A stretch of DNA of 64,000 bases from Myxococcus stipitatus (GTDB lineage: Bacteria; Myxococcota; Myxococcia; Myxococcales; Myxococcaceae). The notes under the pieces were generated by a model, which ran no database searches, was not told where the DNA came from, and worked only from the letters and a program-made list of their open reading frames with translations. How positions within the stretch are numbered: position 1 is the stretch's first letter; every line of letters begins with the position of its first letter. Shown here piece by piece: positions 2,821 to 10,037 of the stretch. The DNA lies in assembly GCF_021412625.1 (NCBI RefSeq), contig NZ_JAKCFI010000004.1:1-64000 (forward strand), in the 5' to 3' direction. Made by a program: the position numbers and the translations under genes.

Positions 2821-3288
2821 TCAGAGCCGGCCGCTGTTGGCCCAGTCGATCATCCGCTCCGCCAGGTCCTGGGTGTTGCGACGCAGGTGCGCCAGCTGGA
2901 GCAGCTGGTCGTCCGACTCCGCCAGCGTCATGCGCCGCGTCAGGAGGTCCGAGAAGCGCACCACCTGCGCGATGCTGATGCAGTCGGTGTCCTCCGCCAG
3001 CCCCGCGAAGCGCGCGACCTCCGCGTCCACTTCCAGACCCTCGTCGACGAGCGCCTTCACCAGCGCCGTCCGCGACACCGGCGTCTCGAACTCTTGCGGG
3101 TCGCGAAGCTGGCGACGCCACGGTTGTGCCTCCCAGCGCACACGAGCGGGGTCCCGGGAGACCCGGTTCCATCTGGGCGGCGTGTTCACTCGAGCCTGCA
3201 TGCCGGTGAAGGCCGGCGTTCCGAAGTCCAGGTTCATCAGTGCCCCCTCTCCACCACGGGGTCCGTCCACGAACGTGACCGACGTCAT
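2821..3288 (-). CDS. small protein of unknown function
   Basis: 155 residues from the ATG at 3288, preceded by GGAGG at good spacing. An internal ATG at 3237 also has a purine-rich GGAGAGGGGG in front and would give 138 residues, so the start is uncertain. The protein is soluble. An N-terminal half rich in Arg/Pro/Trp is followed by a helical C-terminal half (LTRRMTLAES, LLQLAHLRRN) ending in NSGRL. No signal peptide, membrane segment or known catalytic motif is seen. It is convergent with the protease gene and divergent from the methionine methyltransferase gene. I do not recognise a family. Confidence 0.6.
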   Translation of the reverse strand: MTSVTFVDGPRGGEGALMNLDFGTPAFTGMQARVNTPPRWNRVSRDPARVRWEAQPWRRQLRDPQEFETPVSRTALVKALVDEGLEVDAEVARFAGLAEDTDCISIAQVVRFSDLLTRRMTLAESDDQLLQLAHLRRNTQDLAERMIDWANSGRL

Positions 3289-3429
3289 GACTTCCTCCAT
3301 CCCACCTACCCCGTGCGTAATGACGCGGCCCGGGGCGATCCTTGATGCACTCCGCCGCGCCAAACGGTTGTGTACGGACGCCACGGCTCCGTTGACAGGT
3401 GGCGGGTCGCCCGTGACAGTCCGCGGCCC

Positions 3430-6400
3430 ATGCCGACCTACCCCGCGTCCCCCCGAGAAGCCTTCCACCTGCTGCGCGCACTCTCCGAGGACCTGGCCCA
3501 CCCCGAGCGTCGCGCCCGGGCGCGGGTGGAGTTGCGTGAGCTGGCGGAGCTGGCGAGGGAGCGCCCCGAGTCCGCGCCGCTGCGGTTGGTGACGGTGACG
3601 GTGGCGGCGGGGGCGTCCCAGGAGCGGCTGGAGCTGTTCCTGCTGCCGTCCATCTTCGCCCCGGAGGCGTGGGCCTATACCTTCCTGGAGGGACTGCTGA
3701 ACGTCCCGCTGGACGAGTACGCCGGCAAGCGGCTGGTGGAGGTGGGCGCGGGCTCCGGGTGGATCTGCATCGCGCTGGCGAAGTTCACGCGGCTTTCGCA
3801 CATCCACGGCGCGGACCTCAATCCGCACTCGCCGGTGGTGGCGCGCTGTAACGCCTGGCTCAACGGAGACGAGACGCTCGTCTCACGCCTGTCCTTCGGC
3901 GAGAGCGACCTGCTGCGCGGGGTGGCGTCCGAGCCGCCGTGGGACTTCGTGGTGGGGTGCATTCCCCAGGTGCTGCGCACGGAGGAGCTGCCGGCGGAGC
4001 TGTCCCAGGCGGACGAGCAGGCGCTCTACGACTTGTCCAACTACTGCACGTTGCAGAACGTGTACGAGGACCACTTCGGGCTGGGGCTCATCGCGAAGCT
4101 GCTGGACGAGGTGCCGGAGCGGCTGGCGCCCACGGGGCGGCTGTTGCTCAACCTGGCGGGGCGTCCAGGCCGGCCCATCATCGAGCGCATGTTCACCCGT
4201 CGCGGCTTCACCACGCGGGTGCGCGTGGCGCGGCGGGTGATGCAGGCGGCGGACACGGACATCCGCCCGCTGGTGGCGCTGGAGCAGCGCACCGGGCGCG
4301 AGTTCGAGTTCTTCATGGAGGCGCGCAGCCCGGAGCCGCTGCGCGCGGCCACGGCGTTGGGGTGGCTGCAGGCGGGGCACCCGGTGTGGCACGAGGTCGC
4401 GGTGTGGGAGGCGCACCTGACGCGGCCGCGCGAGACGCTGGCCCTGCGGCAGGCGCTGCGGGAGCTGGGCGCGTCGGCGCTGCAGGAGGAGCTGGACCTG
4501 GGGGCCACGTCGCCGGAGCAGCTGGGCTTCGTCGCGGCGCTGGCGGGGCGGCTGGCGAAGGGGCCCCTGCTGCCGTACGCGCACGAGGCGGGGGACGCGT
4601 CGTTCCGCACGCAGGTGGCCCGCTACCTGGAGCGCTACTTCGGCCTGCGGCTGGCGAAGGAGGAGGTGTTCGTCGCGCCCGAGCGGGAGCAGGCGGTGTA
4701 CTCGCTGCTCATGGCGACGTGTGACCCGGGCGACGAGGTGCTGGTGTCGCGCAACCTGCATCCGCTCTACGCGCGGGCGCTGGAGAAGGCGGGCGTGCGA
4801 GCCACGGTGACGCACAGCACGCTGTCGGAGATTCGCCGGCTGGTCTCCGCCTTCGACGTGAAGATGGTGCTGCTCACGGTGGAGAAGGGCGAGCGCACCA
4901 ACCTGGCGGTGCTGCGCGACATCCTCGCGGAGACGGCGCGGCGGGGCATCTGGGTGGTGCTCGACGAGAGCGCCTTCTTCAACATCACCGGCGAGGTGGA
5001 GCCGCTCACGCTGTTCGAGTTCCTGGCGCGCGAGCCGTACTCCCCCAACCTCGTGGTGCTCTACGGCCTGGTGAAGAACGCGGTGTGGCCGGACCTGGAG
5101 CTGACGCTGCTGTTGCCGGTGCCGGCGCCGCTGCGCGGCGACCTGGAGGTGGCGGCGGAGGTGACGTACTCGCGCATCAGCACGCTGGCGCAGTGGTTCT
5201 ACGAGCGCACCTTCGCGGACCTCTTGTCCTTCCGCATCTCCTTCGCGGAGCCAGAGGCGCCCGGGCCGCGCGGCGCGCCGGTGACGACGCTGCCGCGCTC
5301 CGAGCGCATCCGGAGGCTCGAGCGCTACCCCGCCTTCGCGCCCAAGGTCTTCCAGGAGGACGACGCGGAGCTGGTGCGCCTGGACTATGGCGAGAACGAG
5401 GGGCCGCTGCCGCAGCCGCTCATCGAGGGGCTCGTCGCCGCCGCCGCCGCTCCGCGCGAGTCCGGCGCGCAGACGGGCCTGTCGGAGGCCGTGGCGGCCT
5501 TCCTGCTGGAGACGCGCGCGTCGCGCTACGTGCCGGAGGAGCTGGTCGTGGCCCCCGGCGTGTGGCCGCTCATCCACCACCTCGGCGTGGCGCTGCGCAA
5601 GCGACTGGGCCGCGCGCCCCGTGTCTTCGTCGCCACGCCCTGCTACGGCGTGCTGGCGCCCACCTTCGTCTCCGCCGGCTGCGAGGTGGAGCAGGGCCCG
5701 CTGGCACAGCTGCTGTCGCGACGGGGCCAGGGCGCGGGCGCGCCGGACGCCGTCGTCGTCTCGCAGCCGTCCAACCCCACGGGCGTCTACGTGGCGCGCG
5801 AGGAGCTGGTGGCGCTGGCCAGCTACGTGGTGGAGCAGCGGTGCCTGCTGGTGTCCGACGAAATCTTCGGGCTGGTCAACCTGACCAGCCCCACGGCGGA
5901 GACGGTGCACAGCCCGGTGACGTTGGAGGGCGCGGTGCCCGGCGTGGGCGCGCGCACGGTGGTGCTCGGGGGGCTGTCCAAGGAGTTCGCCGCCGGAGGG
6001 CTGCGCGTGGGCTGGCTCGCCACCCGCGACCGGGCGCTCGCCGCGGCGGTGCGCGAGGCGGGGCCCGGCGTGCTGCACCTGGTCACCGCGCGCGCGGCGG
6101 CCTACCTCTACGCGGCCTATGCTCGCGGGCCGGAGGGGCAGCTGCTCTATCCCTCGCGACACCGCGCGCTGCGCGCCTTCCTCACGAAGATGCGCCGCGA
6201 GCTGGCGGAGCTGCGGGAGCGCATCACGGAGGCCCTGCCGGGAGAGGGCCGCGCGGAGGTGGGCGACGTGGGCGGCCTCTTCGTCGCGCCCCGCGTGACG
6301 GCGTGGCTGGGGCGCGAGGTGGACGGCGAGACGCTCACCCCGGAGAACCTGCCGCGCGTGCTGTATGCCCACACGCACGTGGTGGTGAACGGCGGCCCCT

Positions 6401-6525
6401 GGTGCGGTGACCCGGAGCGCGTGCGCGCCGTCTTCTCCATCCCTCGCGAGAAGCTCCTGCAGGCGTGTGAGCGATTGAAGGCCTTCGGCGCGAAGCTGGG
6501 GCCCACGGGCGCGAAGGGCCCCTGA
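3430..6525 (+). CDS. methionine S-methyltransferase, plant MMT-like (methyltransferase plus two aminotransferase-like domains)
   Basis: 1031 residues, close to the roughly 1090 of plant MMT (EC 2.1.1.12), which makes S-methylmethionine from methionine and SAM. Domain 1 (about 50-330) is a class I SAM methyltransferase: VEVGAGSGWICIALAKF is motif I, followed by GADLNP, then VGCIPQVL and LSNYCTLQ...EDHFGLGLIA, wording I recall from plant MMT. Domain 2 (about 370-620) has aminotransferase-fold features but no evident PLP-lysine signature. Domain 3 (about 655-1030) is a class I/II aminotransferase-like half with QPSNPTG, SDEIFG and GGLSKEFAAGGLRVGW, where Lys851 is the expected PLP lysine. The ATG at 3430 gives an N-terminus resembling plant MMT; a GTG at 3370 is possible. 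The next gene is another methyltransferase, 156 bases on. Family assignment is from remembered sequence and is not tested; a fused aminotransferase of other function is the alternative. Confidence 0.82.
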   Translation: MPTYPASPREAFHLLRALSEDLAHPERRARARVELRELAELARERPESAPLRLVTVTVAAGASQERLELFLLPSIFAPEAWAYTFLEGLLNVPLDEYAGKRLVEVGAGSGWICIALAKFTRLSHIHGADLNPHSPVVARCNAWLNGDETLVSRLSFGESDLLRGVASEPPWDFVVGCIPQVLRTEELPAELSQADEQALYDLSNYCTLQNVYEDHFGLGLIAKLLDEVPERLAPTGRLLLNLAGRPGRPIIERMFTRRGFTTRVRVARRVMQAADTDIRPLVALEQRTGREFEFFMEARSPEPLRAATALGWLQAGHPVWHEVAVWEAHLTRPRETLALRQALRELGASALQEELDLGATSPEQLGFVAALAGRLAKGPLLPYAHEAGDASFRTQVARYLERYFGLRLAKEEVFVAPEREQAVYSLLMATCDPGDEVLVSRNLHPLYARALEKAGVRATVTHSTLSEIRRLVSAFDVKMVLLTVEKGERTNLAVLRDILAETARRGIWVVLDESAFFNITGEVEPLTLFEFLAREPYSPNLVVLYGLVKNAVWPDLELTLLLPVPAPLRGDLEVAAEVTYSRISTLAQWFYERTFADLLSFRISFAEPEAPGPRGAPVTTLPRSERIRRLERYPAFAPKVFQEDDAELVRLDYGENEGPLPQPLIEGLVAAAAAPRESGAQTGLSEAVAAFLLETRASRYVPEELVVAPGVWPLIHHLGVALRKRLGRAPRVFVATPCYGVLAPTFVSAGCEVEQGPLAQLLSRRGQGAGAPDAVVVSQPSNPTGVYVAREELVALASYVVEQRCLLVSDEIFGLVNLTSPTAETVHSPVTLEGAVPGVGARTVVLGGLSKEFAAGGLRVGWLATRDRALAAAVREAGPGVLHLVTARAAAYLYAAYARGPEGQLLYPSRHRALRAFLTKMRRELAELRERITEALPGEGRAEVGDVGGLFVAPRVTAWLGREVDGETLTPENLPRVLYAHTHVVVNGGPWCGDPERVRAVFSIPREKLLQACERLKAFGAKLGPTGAKGP

Positions 6526-6681: not shown

Positions 6682-7680
6682 ATGCCCAATCTTCTCGACC
6701 TGCCTCGCCAGGCATTGATGGACCTCCGCTCGAGGCTGAGCCACCTCCCACTGGTCTCCCAGCTCCCGTTGCGCAACGTGGTGCCGGACAGCCTCTCGTT
6801 GTCGAGTCCCGCGCCGCAGGACTCGGCGCTGGCGGACCCGGCGCGGGTGCTGGCCTGGCAGAAGGCGTGCGAGCGGTATGTCCGGCCGGGGCAAGCGGTG
6901 ATGGACGTGTGCTCCGGCACGGGGTTGCGCACGTTCCTGGCGGCGTCGCGGCGGCCCCGGCGGCTGTACGCGGTGGACGGTACGCGGCTGTTGGACACGG
7001 CGCAGTGGGTGGCGCGGCGCAACGGGTTGGACAACATCGACTTCGTGCGCTCGCACCCGTGGCACTACCAGCCGCCGGAGAAGATGGACGTGCTGCTGCA
7101 CGAGCTGCTGGGCGACGCGCTGTTCGACGCGGGGATGGTGCCGAGGATGCTGGACCTGCGCTCGCGGCTGCTCAAGCCCGGGGGGCGCATCCTCCCCAAC
7201 CGCTTCGAGGTCTTCATGGAGCCGGTGCAGCTGCGCGACGAGGCGTGCATCCCCTTCATCTGGAGCCAGCGCTTCCCCAGCGTGGACTACAGCTGCCTGC
7301 AGACGCTGCGCGAGGCGATGAACCCGTCCTACTTCACGCGCGTGGTGCGTTCGTACGAGGTGGACCACCTCTTGTGCGACCCGGAGCCGGCCTTCGCCTT
7401 CGACCTGGAGACGATGACCGTCGACGGCCTGCCGCACCGGGTGCGCCTGGAGCGGCCCGTGGTGGAGGGCGGGCGGGTGGATGGCATCTGCCTCTTCTAC
7501 AAGGTGGCCTTCGACGCGGAGCTGTCCTTCACCGTGTCGCCCCTGCGTGGGCAGAACCACGCGGGCATGACGCTCCTGCGCACCGACTCGCGCGAGTTCG
7601 AGCGCTTCGACACGCTCTCCTTCGAGGTGGAGCTGGCGGACCCCACCGACGTGCGCACCTGGCGCTGGCACTTGCGCTGA
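6682..7680 (+). CDS. protein arginine methyltransferase-like SAM enzyme
   Basis: 332 residues. A class I SAM-binding core follows an N-terminal helical segment: VMDVCSGTGLRTFLA (motif I), LYAVDGT (acidic end of beta 2), and DVLLHELLGDALFDAGMVP, which matches the PRMT double-E loop, with the first Glu kept and the second position occupied by Asp. RLLKPGGRILPNRFEVFMEPV follows, as in the PRMT beta-barrel junction. The C-terminal 150 residues would form the barrel. A protein or small-molecule methyl acceptor is likely; arginine specificity is inferred only from the loop. GGGAA lies just before the ATG. It is co-directional with the MMT gene upstream, but 156 bases separate them, so co-transcription is uncertain. 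Confidence 0.75.
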   Translation: MPNLLDLPRQALMDLRSRLSHLPLVSQLPLRNVVPDSLSLSSPAPQDSALADPARVLAWQKACERYVRPGQAVMDVCSGTGLRTFLAASRRPRRLYAVDGTRLLDTAQWVARRNGLDNIDFVRSHPWHYQPPEKMDVLLHELLGDALFDAGMVPRMLDLRSRLLKPGGRILPNRFEVFMEPVQLRDEACIPFIWSQRFPSVDYSCLQTLREAMNPSYFTRVVRSYEVDHLLCDPEPAFAFDLETMTVDGLPHRVRLERPVVEGGRVDGICLFYKVAFDAELSFTVSPLRGQNHAGMTLLRTDSREFERFDTLSFEVELADPTDVRTWRWHLR

Positions 7681-8580: not shown

Positions 8581-8666
8581 ACCCACGGCCGTTCCCGAAG
8601 GCGACGCGCGTCGTGCGAGAGTGCGAGGGCGCTTCCCGTCACGGGCGCGCGCACGGAGGGACTCGC

Positions 8667-10037
8667 ATGGGGCTGGGACACGAGCGGATGTCGAGCGTGG
8701 ACGCGCTCTGGTTCCACATGGAGGAGCCCGACAACCTGATGATGATCACCTCCGTGCTCGGCTTCGACGGACGGATGGACTTCGCGCGCCTGCGCGAGCT
8801 GGTGCGCACGCGCCTGGTGGAGCGCTACCCGCGCTTCCGGCAGCGCGTGGTGGTCAGCCGGTTGGGCACCCCGTCCTGGGTGGACGCGGAGGACTTCGAC
8901 CTGGACGCGCACCTGGTGCGGCTGCCCGTGCCCTCGGCGGACGAGCCGGGGGCGCTCGAGGCGCTGGTGGGGCAGTGGATGAGCACGCCGTTGGAGCGCT
9001 CGCGTCCGCTGTGGCAGCTGCACGTCCTGGAGGGCGCGCCCGGCGGCGACGTGCTGCTGTCGCGGGTGCACCACTGTCTGGCGGACGGCATCGCGCTGGC
9101 GCGCGTGCTGCTGACGCTCTCCGACGATGGGGACGACTCGGCGGTGGCGGAGGCGCCCGCGTCACGTCCGGCGGTGGTGGGCCTGGAGAAGTGGACGCGG
9201 CGGGCGCTGTCCGCGGCGGGCACGGCGCGCGCGGTGCTGCGCAAGGGCGCGGAGCTGGTGGCCGAGCCCATCCTCGCCGGGGACCTGATGCGCCAGGGCG
9301 CGCTCGGGGCCCTCGCGCTGGGCAAGCTGATGGCGATTCCCCCGGACCCGCGCACGCCGCTGCACGGCCCCCTGGGCGTGCACAAGCGCGCGGCCTGGTC
9401 CGCGAGCCTCTCCCTGGAGCGGGTGAAGGCGCTGGGGCGCGCGCTGGATGGCACCGTGAACGACGTGCTGCTGGCGACGCTGGCGGGGGCGCTGCGGCGC
9501 TACCTGGAGTCGCTCGACGTGGCGCCGGAGGACCTGCACGCCCTGGTCCCGGTGAACCTGCGTCCCCTGGACGTGCCGGTGCCCCGGGAGCTGGGCAACC
9601 GCTTCGGCGTGGTGTTCCTGCGGCTGCCCGTCCACATCGAGGAGCCCCGGCGCCGGCTGCGGGAGCTGTCCCGGCGCATGCTGGCGGTGAAGCGCTCGCC
9701 GGAGGCGGTGGTGACGTTCAGCGCGCTGGAGTTGCTGGGGCTGACGCCGGCCCCGCTGGAGCGCGCGGTGGTGGACCTGTTCGGCTCCAAGGCCACGCTC
9801 GTCGCGACGAACGTGCCCGGCCCCCGGCGGCCCGTGACGCTGGCGGGCGCGCGGCTGCGCGAGCTGACGTTCTGGGTGCCCCAGACGGGACACCTGGGCC
9901 TGGGGGTGAGCCTGTTCAGCTACGCGGGCCAGGTGACGGTGGGCGTGGCGTCGGACGCGGAGCGGGTGCCCGAGCCCGGGGCCCTCGTGCGCGCCTTCCA
10001 CGAGGAGTTCGAGGCGCTGTCCTCGCTCGCGGCCTGA
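8667..10037 (+). CDS. wax ester synthase / diacylglycerol acyltransferase (WS/DGAT)
   Basis: 456 residues, the normal length for bacterial WS/DGAT enzymes, which transfer an acyl group from acyl-CoA to a fatty alcohol or diacylglycerol to form storage wax esters or triacylglycerol. The active-site motif HHxxxDG is present as HHCLADG (His135, His136, Asp140), right after a segment typical of the family (PLWQLHVLEG). A conserved late motif region is seen in VPGPRRPVTLAGARL. ATG 8667 is preceded by GGAGGG at about 7 bases and gives the family-typical MSSVDALWFHME opening. Its stop codon abuts the stop of the convergent sigma-54 activator gene with no spacer. Myxobacteria accumulate lipid bodies during development, which fits. 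Confidence 0.92.
   Translation: MGLGHERMSSVDALWFHMEEPDNLMMITSVLGFDGRMDFARLRELVRTRLVERYPRFRQRVVVSRLGTPSWVDAEDFDLDAHLVRLPVPSADEPGALEALVGQWMSTPLERSRPLWQLHVLEGAPGGDVLLSRVHHCLADGIALARVLLTLSDDGDDSAVAEAPASRPAVVGLEKWTRRALSAAGTARAVLRKGAELVAEPILAGDLMRQGALGALALGKLMAIPPDPRTPLHGPLGVHKRAAWSASLSLERVKALGRALDGTVNDVLLATLAGALRRYLESLDVAPEDLHALVPVNLRPLDVPVPRELGNRFGVVFLRLPVHIEEPRRRLRELSRRMLAVKRSPEAVVTFSALELLGLTPAPLERAVVDLFGSKATLVATNVPGPRRPVTLAGARLRELTFWVPQTGHLGLGVSLFSYAGQVTVGVASDAERVPEPGALVRAFHEEFEALSSLAA

Follow-up and report, generated by a model that had tools for sequence, protein, structure and literature searches.

The window analysed here is a 64,000-nucleotide stretch of Myxococcus stipitatus DNA (contig NZ_JAKCFI010000004.1, forward strand). 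Frame 1 from position 3430 runs uninterrupted for 1031 residues to a stop at 6523-6525, and the features of its product, a probable methionine S-methyltransferase (MMT), are collected in Table 1. The first-pass annotation had described a plant-type MMT with a methyltransferase (MT) followed by two aminotransferase-like halves, and this three-part layout was recovered: Aminotran_1_2, the sole Pfam family recognised in the product, matched two stretches (E = 2.4e-36), and the N-terminal third, which had no match in the Pfam search, yielded its MT domain through MmtN. The motifs named in that annotation were also in place, with VGCIPQVL, LSNYCTLQ and FGLGLIA at residues 175-182, 202-209 and 216-222, and Lys851 within the PLP motif GLSKEFAAGGLRVGW at residues 848-862.

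Table 1 Features of the MMT gene and its product, in positions of the window.
Feature	Coordinates	Strand	Remarks
Probable methionine S-methyltransferase, Group III MMT type	3430..6525	+	1031 aa + stop, single gene
MmtN-like SAM methyltransferase (MT) domain	3610..4419	+	residues 61-330; profile match to MmtN 7vvv
GAGSG, putative GxGxG SAM-binding motif	3745..3759	+	residues 106-110; motif named in PMC9135737
VGCIPQVL	3952..3975	+	residues 175-182; C177 aligns with MmtN Cys121
Middle aminotransferase-like half	4420..5289	+	residues 331-620; retains Asp512 and Lys549, with Glu557 in place of Arg
Lys549 codon	5074..5076	+	middle half; aligns with the 1j32 PLP Lys
C-terminal class I aminotransferase domain (predicted)	5347..6504	+	residues 640-1025; complete PLP residue set
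Lys851 codon	5980..5982	+	predicted PLP Schiff-base lysine

A phmmer search of the PDB with the MT domain found MmtN (E = 1.8e-10). The profile check against MmtN that the annotation had proposed for the N-terminal part gave the same answer, as an MT-domain profile of 16 relatives matched MmtN 7vvv best (E = 5.1e-19, profile positions 76-327 of 330), well ahead of a gentamicin methyltransferase in second place (E = 3.1e-5, 52 positions). The domain and the MmtN chain were 29% identical over 239 aligned columns, in which MmtN Asp69, Leu102, Cys121 and Glu250 matched Asp129, Leu161, Cys177 and Glu291. Peng et al. (PMC9135737) assigned these four residues and the GxGxG motif to SAM or Met, with Cys121 contacting the SAM carboxylate. 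The motif and most of the SAM-binding residues of MmtN are represented in the product (GAGSG, D129, L161 and C177). The MT positions that we counted were conserved in 50 to 52 of 52 distinct sequences, the window's included, with misses confined to loci L098, L094 (Ser for Cys177) and L095. By alignment, the MT domain falls within the MmtN/MMT family of methionine S-methyltransferases.

For the plant comparison we used one provisional Arabidopsis sequence of 1071 residues, which we take to be the MMT AT5G49810; the plant enzyme is EC 2.1.1.12. The sole peptide checked against print, FCSLIAGFMR, listed for AT5G49810 in a proteomics table (PMC4342551), is present in the provisional sequence. The product was collinear with that sequence from end to end (25% identity over 1095 columns), and identity was 40% in the MT domain (106/268), 23% in the middle half and 21% in the C half. 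This full-length alignment, MmtN as the closest solved relative and the two-part layout described in PMC9135737 all agreed with the earlier assignment to the plant MMT family. In an MT-domain tree with 11 of 18 inner branches open and bootstrap not settled, built with one long MmtN row and a single provisional plant row whose residue composition is unlike the rest, the plant row adjoined L094 (87/99) inside the bacterial MMT rows, a hint only of where plant MMT belongs, and MmtN sat on a long branch. L094 is a divergent MMT from within the same order and shares the plant-type insertion after residue 149 of the window's protein.

The rarity outside plants that the annotation implied did not hold, with bacterial MMT already published and a match in more than half of the family's genomes. 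Peng et al. 2022 (PMC9135737) reported that some Deltaproteobacteria and Oligoflexia carry a plant-like dual-domain MMT ("Group III"), whose gene was unlinked to DMSP, NRPS or other methionine-cycling genes and for which one of four strains tested made DMSP. Because this group is published, the window gene represents a known kind of enzyme. Its 1031-residue product departs from the stand-alone size of about 305 residues of Group I MmtN and has the Group III feature of a large C-terminal aminotransferase region in one chain with the MT domain. Literature searches for methionine S-methyltransferase in Myxococc* returned no match, those for myxobacteria with S-methylmethionine (SMM) matched a RiPP review alone, a broader term set matched PMC9135737 alone, and nothing on bacterial MMT was found in the portions of PMC13360808 and PMC8004995 covered.

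Searches recovered an MMT match in 27/27 genomes of the genus, 57/96 of the family and 60/195 of the phylum. At 1e-12 the MT profile matched 60 of 384 relatives and none of the 60 listed lay outside the phylum; judging from the 195-genome phylum search, roughly half of the 384 relatives would lie outside it. These counts come from the best 8 (family), 4 (phylum) and 5 (384 relatives) candidates scored per genome, and misses are not proof of absence. Six of the 57 family matches count one stop. Two of these, L076 and L091, extracted as whole loci, have 1029 and 1023 residues before the stop, and a third, L098, sits on a truncated contig and lacks the first 147 residues. One of the 57 family matches, in genome G080, comes from a truncated contig. 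Searching with exact peptide patterns from the window protein, which reaches close relatives only, identified 25 of 54 loci in a named collection as orthologues, 24 bearing myxobacterial names and one that of Comamonas. Relaxing the MT profile to 1e-8 added seven phylum genomes at no more than 43.7 bits, whose sequences clustered apart from the MMT rows in the MT tree (87/97). Two samples holding no known positive were uninformative for the MT profile: 0/248 genomes of the family of a Roseovarius locus, chosen as a control for MmtN, at 1e-8 (at most 8 candidates per genome) and 0/11 genomes behind other loci at 1e-6. MMT is a regular gene of Myxococcus and not the oddity of one strain. The published statement on bacterial MMT reportedly goes back to Williams et al. 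2019.

The two aminotransferase-like halves differ in how much of a PLP site they keep. Against the PDB the middle half matched aspartate aminotransferases weakly (best E = 1.5e-5), and Asp512 and Lys549, both kept in 50/52 distinct sequences, aligned with the residues of 1j32 that serve as its PLP Asp and Lys. Eight residues after Lys549, where the phosphate-binding Arg would stand, is Glu557 (Glu in 51 of 52, Ala in the other), and no NPTG motif was seen in this half, so that the class I residue set is incomplete. The annotation had called the middle half degenerate, which stands for the lost Arg and NPTG but not for Asp512 and Lys549; on alignment it is not simply degenerate and is less decayed than first thought. 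The C half matched many aminotransferases and carries the full Asn/Asp/Lys/Arg/Arg set. N782, D810, K851, R859 and R999 were jointly conserved in 51/52 distinct MMT sequences, and Lys851 in all 52. The five residues were retained down to L094, at 41% overall identity, and were invariant columns in a 34-row alignment in which 22 rows are stand-alone aminotransferase-like proteins from other bacteria. An AlphaFold2 model of the C half, whose input alignment includes aminotransferases and is thereby helped towards the fold, had a pLDDT of 87.5 and a pTM of 0.88. It predicted a class I aminotransferase fold, with a best Foldseek match to 1gd9 (E = 7.9e-22) and a best VIA-align match to Arabidopsis prephenate aminotransferase (Z 38.9 with an rmsd of 2.5 over 361 residues; matches whose Z differs by 1 or less count as tied). 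The fold says nothing about the reaction, and neither do the NCBIfam matches listed, in which many PLP families appeared, all far below their cut-offs (best 78.6 bits vs 415). Conservation of the residue set makes it likely that the C half binds PLP. A full-length model from a 25-row alignment had a mean pLDDT of 51.8, too poor to judge an intramolecular pseudo-dimer.

In Nei-Gojobori comparisons of the window gene with six relatives, dN/dS was 0.08-0.19 in the MT domain, 0.10-0.40 in the middle half and 0.14-0.28 in the C half, rough figures given codon bias in a G+C-rich genome. These ratios indicate that all three parts are under purifying selection and that none drifts freely. The family can nevertheless decay. 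L095 (genome G162), which occupies the locus where G161 has an intact gene, left MT profile positions 179-221 unmatched, the central MT segment being lost, and also lacked the middle Asp and Lys, N782 and R999, with K851 and R859 remaining. We considered L095 as proof of a tail function independent of the MT domain and rejected it, since its C half is without N782 and R999 as well; the gene may simply be decaying.

From the observed domain make-up and its conservation, and from the predicted fold of the C half, we infer SMM formation, PLP binding and a pseudo-dimer, and put at about 0.8 the probability that the window gene is a bacterial Group III MMT whose MT domain makes SMM, whose C half binds PLP and whose middle half is a possible dimer partner. 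The N-terminal domain would bind SAM and methionine and methylate the methionine sulfur, with SMM and SAH as products; that the product forms SMM is very likely from its sequence relationships. Transfer would need no catalytic residue, as proposed for MmtN in a mechanism of proximity and desolvation (PMC9135737). The C half, with its class I aminotransferase fold, would most likely hold PLP at Lys851, and the middle half, a second and partly decayed copy of this fold, may serve as a built-in dimer partner. If the enzyme is active, SMM is a likely metabolite of common soil myxobacteria.

To our knowledge, what the aminotransferase part of MMT does is unexplained, and among the literature matches listed no title or abstract opening addressed it. 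It may be a scaffold or regulatory sensor only, possibly like its plant counterpart, with K851 a leftover, an explanation compatible with the MT part of our preferred reading and one that we consider a real possibility at somewhat less than even odds. Plant MMT works although the C half of its provisional sequence carries Leu, Lys and Ser in place of Lys851, Arg859 and Asn782, respectively, keeping the Asp and last Arg of the PLP set; the middle half of that sequence retains both Asp512 and Lys549. The C half also evolves faster than the MT domain, as a scaffold might, but its dN/dS remains low and its five PLP residues persist together in sequences as distant as L094.

A more tentative and on balance unlikely alternative is that MMT is a two-step enzyme, in which SMM made by the MT domain, or a related sulfonium amino acid, is consumed at the intact PLP site of the tail. 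The tail might, for example, transaminate it to a sulfonium keto acid, or release dimethyl sulfide by elimination, much as ACC synthase eliminates methylthioadenosine from SAM. Because the C half of the provisional Arabidopsis sequence is without the Lys, bacterial MMT might have two functions, with the tail of the plant enzyme as a remnant; plant MMT would then descend from such an enzyme and keep its tail as a dead scaffold. If true, this would explain the retention of MMT in SMM-making bacteria without DMSP or recycling genes. Myxobacterial MMTs with intact PLP residues make the role of the aminotransferase part directly testable. A bacterial MMT with an apparently intact PLP site in its tail half, set against a provisional plant sequence without the C-half Lys, may be new, and the part of PMC9135737 cited here was not found to discuss PLP-site integrity in Group III MMT.

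The fate of SMM was considered from gene neighbourhoods and genome content. In the loci compared we saw no conserved operon or methionine gene beside MMT, and no SMM or DMSP gene. Gene order, taken from a crude gene caller, was shared within Myxococcus and in part with L027, L099, L101 and L102, and not with Corallococcus or farther genomes. Operon logic was rejected as a means of naming a partner gene, as gene order changes between genera. A PRMT-like gene lay downstream on the same strand in 17 of the 36 loci examined, at distances of 154 to 4731 bases, and a small divergent gene lay near MMT in 14 of the 36; some of these loci are too short to show neighbours, and L020 and L104 gave identical figures, so that not all are independent. 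The window's genome, estimated to be 100% complete, had one match to the homocysteine methyltransferase family PF02574; the frame concerned has 1187 residues, which is what MetH would be expected to have, and this search found no separate homocysteine methyltransferase there.

SMM could feed a plant-like cycle controlling SAM and methionine levels, as Peng et al. predicted for Group II organisms (PMC9135737). Consistent with such a cycle, ten of the 57 MMT-bearing family genomes (G004, G018, G020, G022, G028, G029, G030, G057, G075 and G076) had a second kind of PF02574 match, at about 113-131 bits and distinct from that of MetH size, and a divergent homocysteine methyltransferase partner is possible in them. 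G022 had this second kind only, and G041 had no PF02574 match. However, the two of these ten proteins that were scored reached 86 and 77 bits against an MmuM cut-off of 215, and the protein that passed it (318 bits) sits in a genome without an MMT match. For the window's genome the plant cycle is not supported by the gene content, because neither a conserved operon nor a separate homocysteine methyltransferase was found, and we regard this fate of SMM as improbable. DMSP cleavage in the window's genome is possible. Its one match to the DMSP lyase family PF16867 (27.6 bits vs a cut-off of 27) covers about a third of the profile (102-160 of 162) and was rejected as a DMSP lyase, being taken as a cupin of other function.

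The methionine site bears on whether the MT domain now methylates a different acceptor, such as selenomethionine, homocysteine or a peptide thioether, which would leave the enzyme MMT-like but not an SMM synthase. In MmtN, Glu127, Arg132 and Glu250 bind Met, and Glu127 also contacts SAM (PMC9135737). Four MmtN residues, Ser101, Glu127, Arg132 and Tyr160, were not conserved in the product. Ser101 is replaced by Asp160 (Asp in the provisional plant row too), Glu127 by Arg183 (Asn in the plant row), and Arg132 falls in an alignment gap, so that Glu250 alone of the Met-binding trio aligns, with Glu291; the plant row has Arg there. The loss of two of the three Met-binding residues and the lack of a neighbouring SMM or DMSP gene would suit a changed acceptor, but all four residues are also absent from the provisional Arabidopsis sequence, and SMM synthesis by plant MMT has been shown by assay (PMC11464771). 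Their loss in both may only separate MMT from MmtN, and it is in the MT domain that the window product and the provisional plant sequence agree most. We therefore judge a different acceptor to be quite improbable and retain SMM formation. That the gene is an unrelated methyltransferase-aminotransferase fusion merely resembling MMT is barely credible: such fusions are conceivable and the PLP half alone matches many families, but the full-length collinearity with the provisional plant MMT, MmtN as the top structure match and the published Group III MMT of Deltaproteobacteria (PMC9135737) all stand against it.

Among known systems, class I aminotransferases (prephenate and aspartate aminotransferases and ACC synthase) share their fold and PLP residues with the predicted C half, at about 20% identity; the C half differs in following a methyltransferase and a decayed copy within one chain, and in having Phe813 for the Tyr of the usual SDExY motif. 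Plant MMT, as represented by the provisional AT5G49810 sequence, is collinear with the product over its whole length and closest to it in the MT domain, but its C half is without the PLP Lys that the window product has in Lys851. Plants also pair MMT with a homocysteine methyltransferase (PMC9135737), whereas no separate one was found in the window's genome. MmtN of Roseovarius indicus (PDB 7vvv/7vvw/7vvx) has a homologous MT domain with most SAM-binding residues in common, but at 305 residues it is without the aminotransferase part of the window product. For Group III MMT the cited part of PMC9135737 shows no difference from the window product: the gene is unlinked to DMSP, NRPS or methionine genes, in agreement with the neighbours here, and the protein joins an MmtN-like N-terminal domain to a C-terminal aminotransferase region, as does the product of the window gene.

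The MMT (methionine S-methyltransferase) gene had a PRMT-like gene downstream on the shared strand in 17 of the 36 loci compared, some of which are too short to show neighbours and two of which (L020 and L104) gave identical values in this comparison. The product of the PRMT-like gene in the window is kin to eukaryotic protein arginine methyltransferases, with PRMT6 as the top match in the PDB search (E=5.3e-18). The small upstream gene was present in 14/36 loci, on the opposite strand in all 14, and its window product had no match in Pfam and NCBIfam searches. Gene-order comparison also placed a wax ester synthase/diacylglycerol acyltransferase gene close to MMT in several Myxococcus loci.

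Features near MMT and in orthologous loci
Feature	Coordinates	Strand	Match or genome
Small divergent gene, ~155 residues, directly upstream of MMT	window 2821-3291	-	
PRMT-like gene, next downstream of MMT	window 6682-7680	+	PDB match
Wax ester synthase/diacylglycerol acyltransferase gene	window 8613-10037	+	PF06974 and PF03007 matches
MMT orthologue with shortened methyltransferase (MT) domain	L095:8070-10991		G162
Divergent bacterial MMT	L094:1532-4747		G152

Locus L017 (BNCN01000002.1), titled Comamonas sp. KCTC 72670, encoded an MMT at 86% identity and had Myxococcus-like neighbours by gene order, and the Comamonas label on this record looks wrong. The L095 orthologue had lost a central MT segment (positions 179-221 of the MT profile), and its syntenic counterpart in genome G161 was intact; the shortened gene may reflect decay or a new role.

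The L094 MMT was 41% identical to the window MMT. In the alignment it had a plant-type MT-domain insertion in common with an Arabidopsis MMT sequence checked against print for one 10-residue peptide, and it grouped with that sequence, the only plant row, in a tree whose bootstrap support was unsettled.
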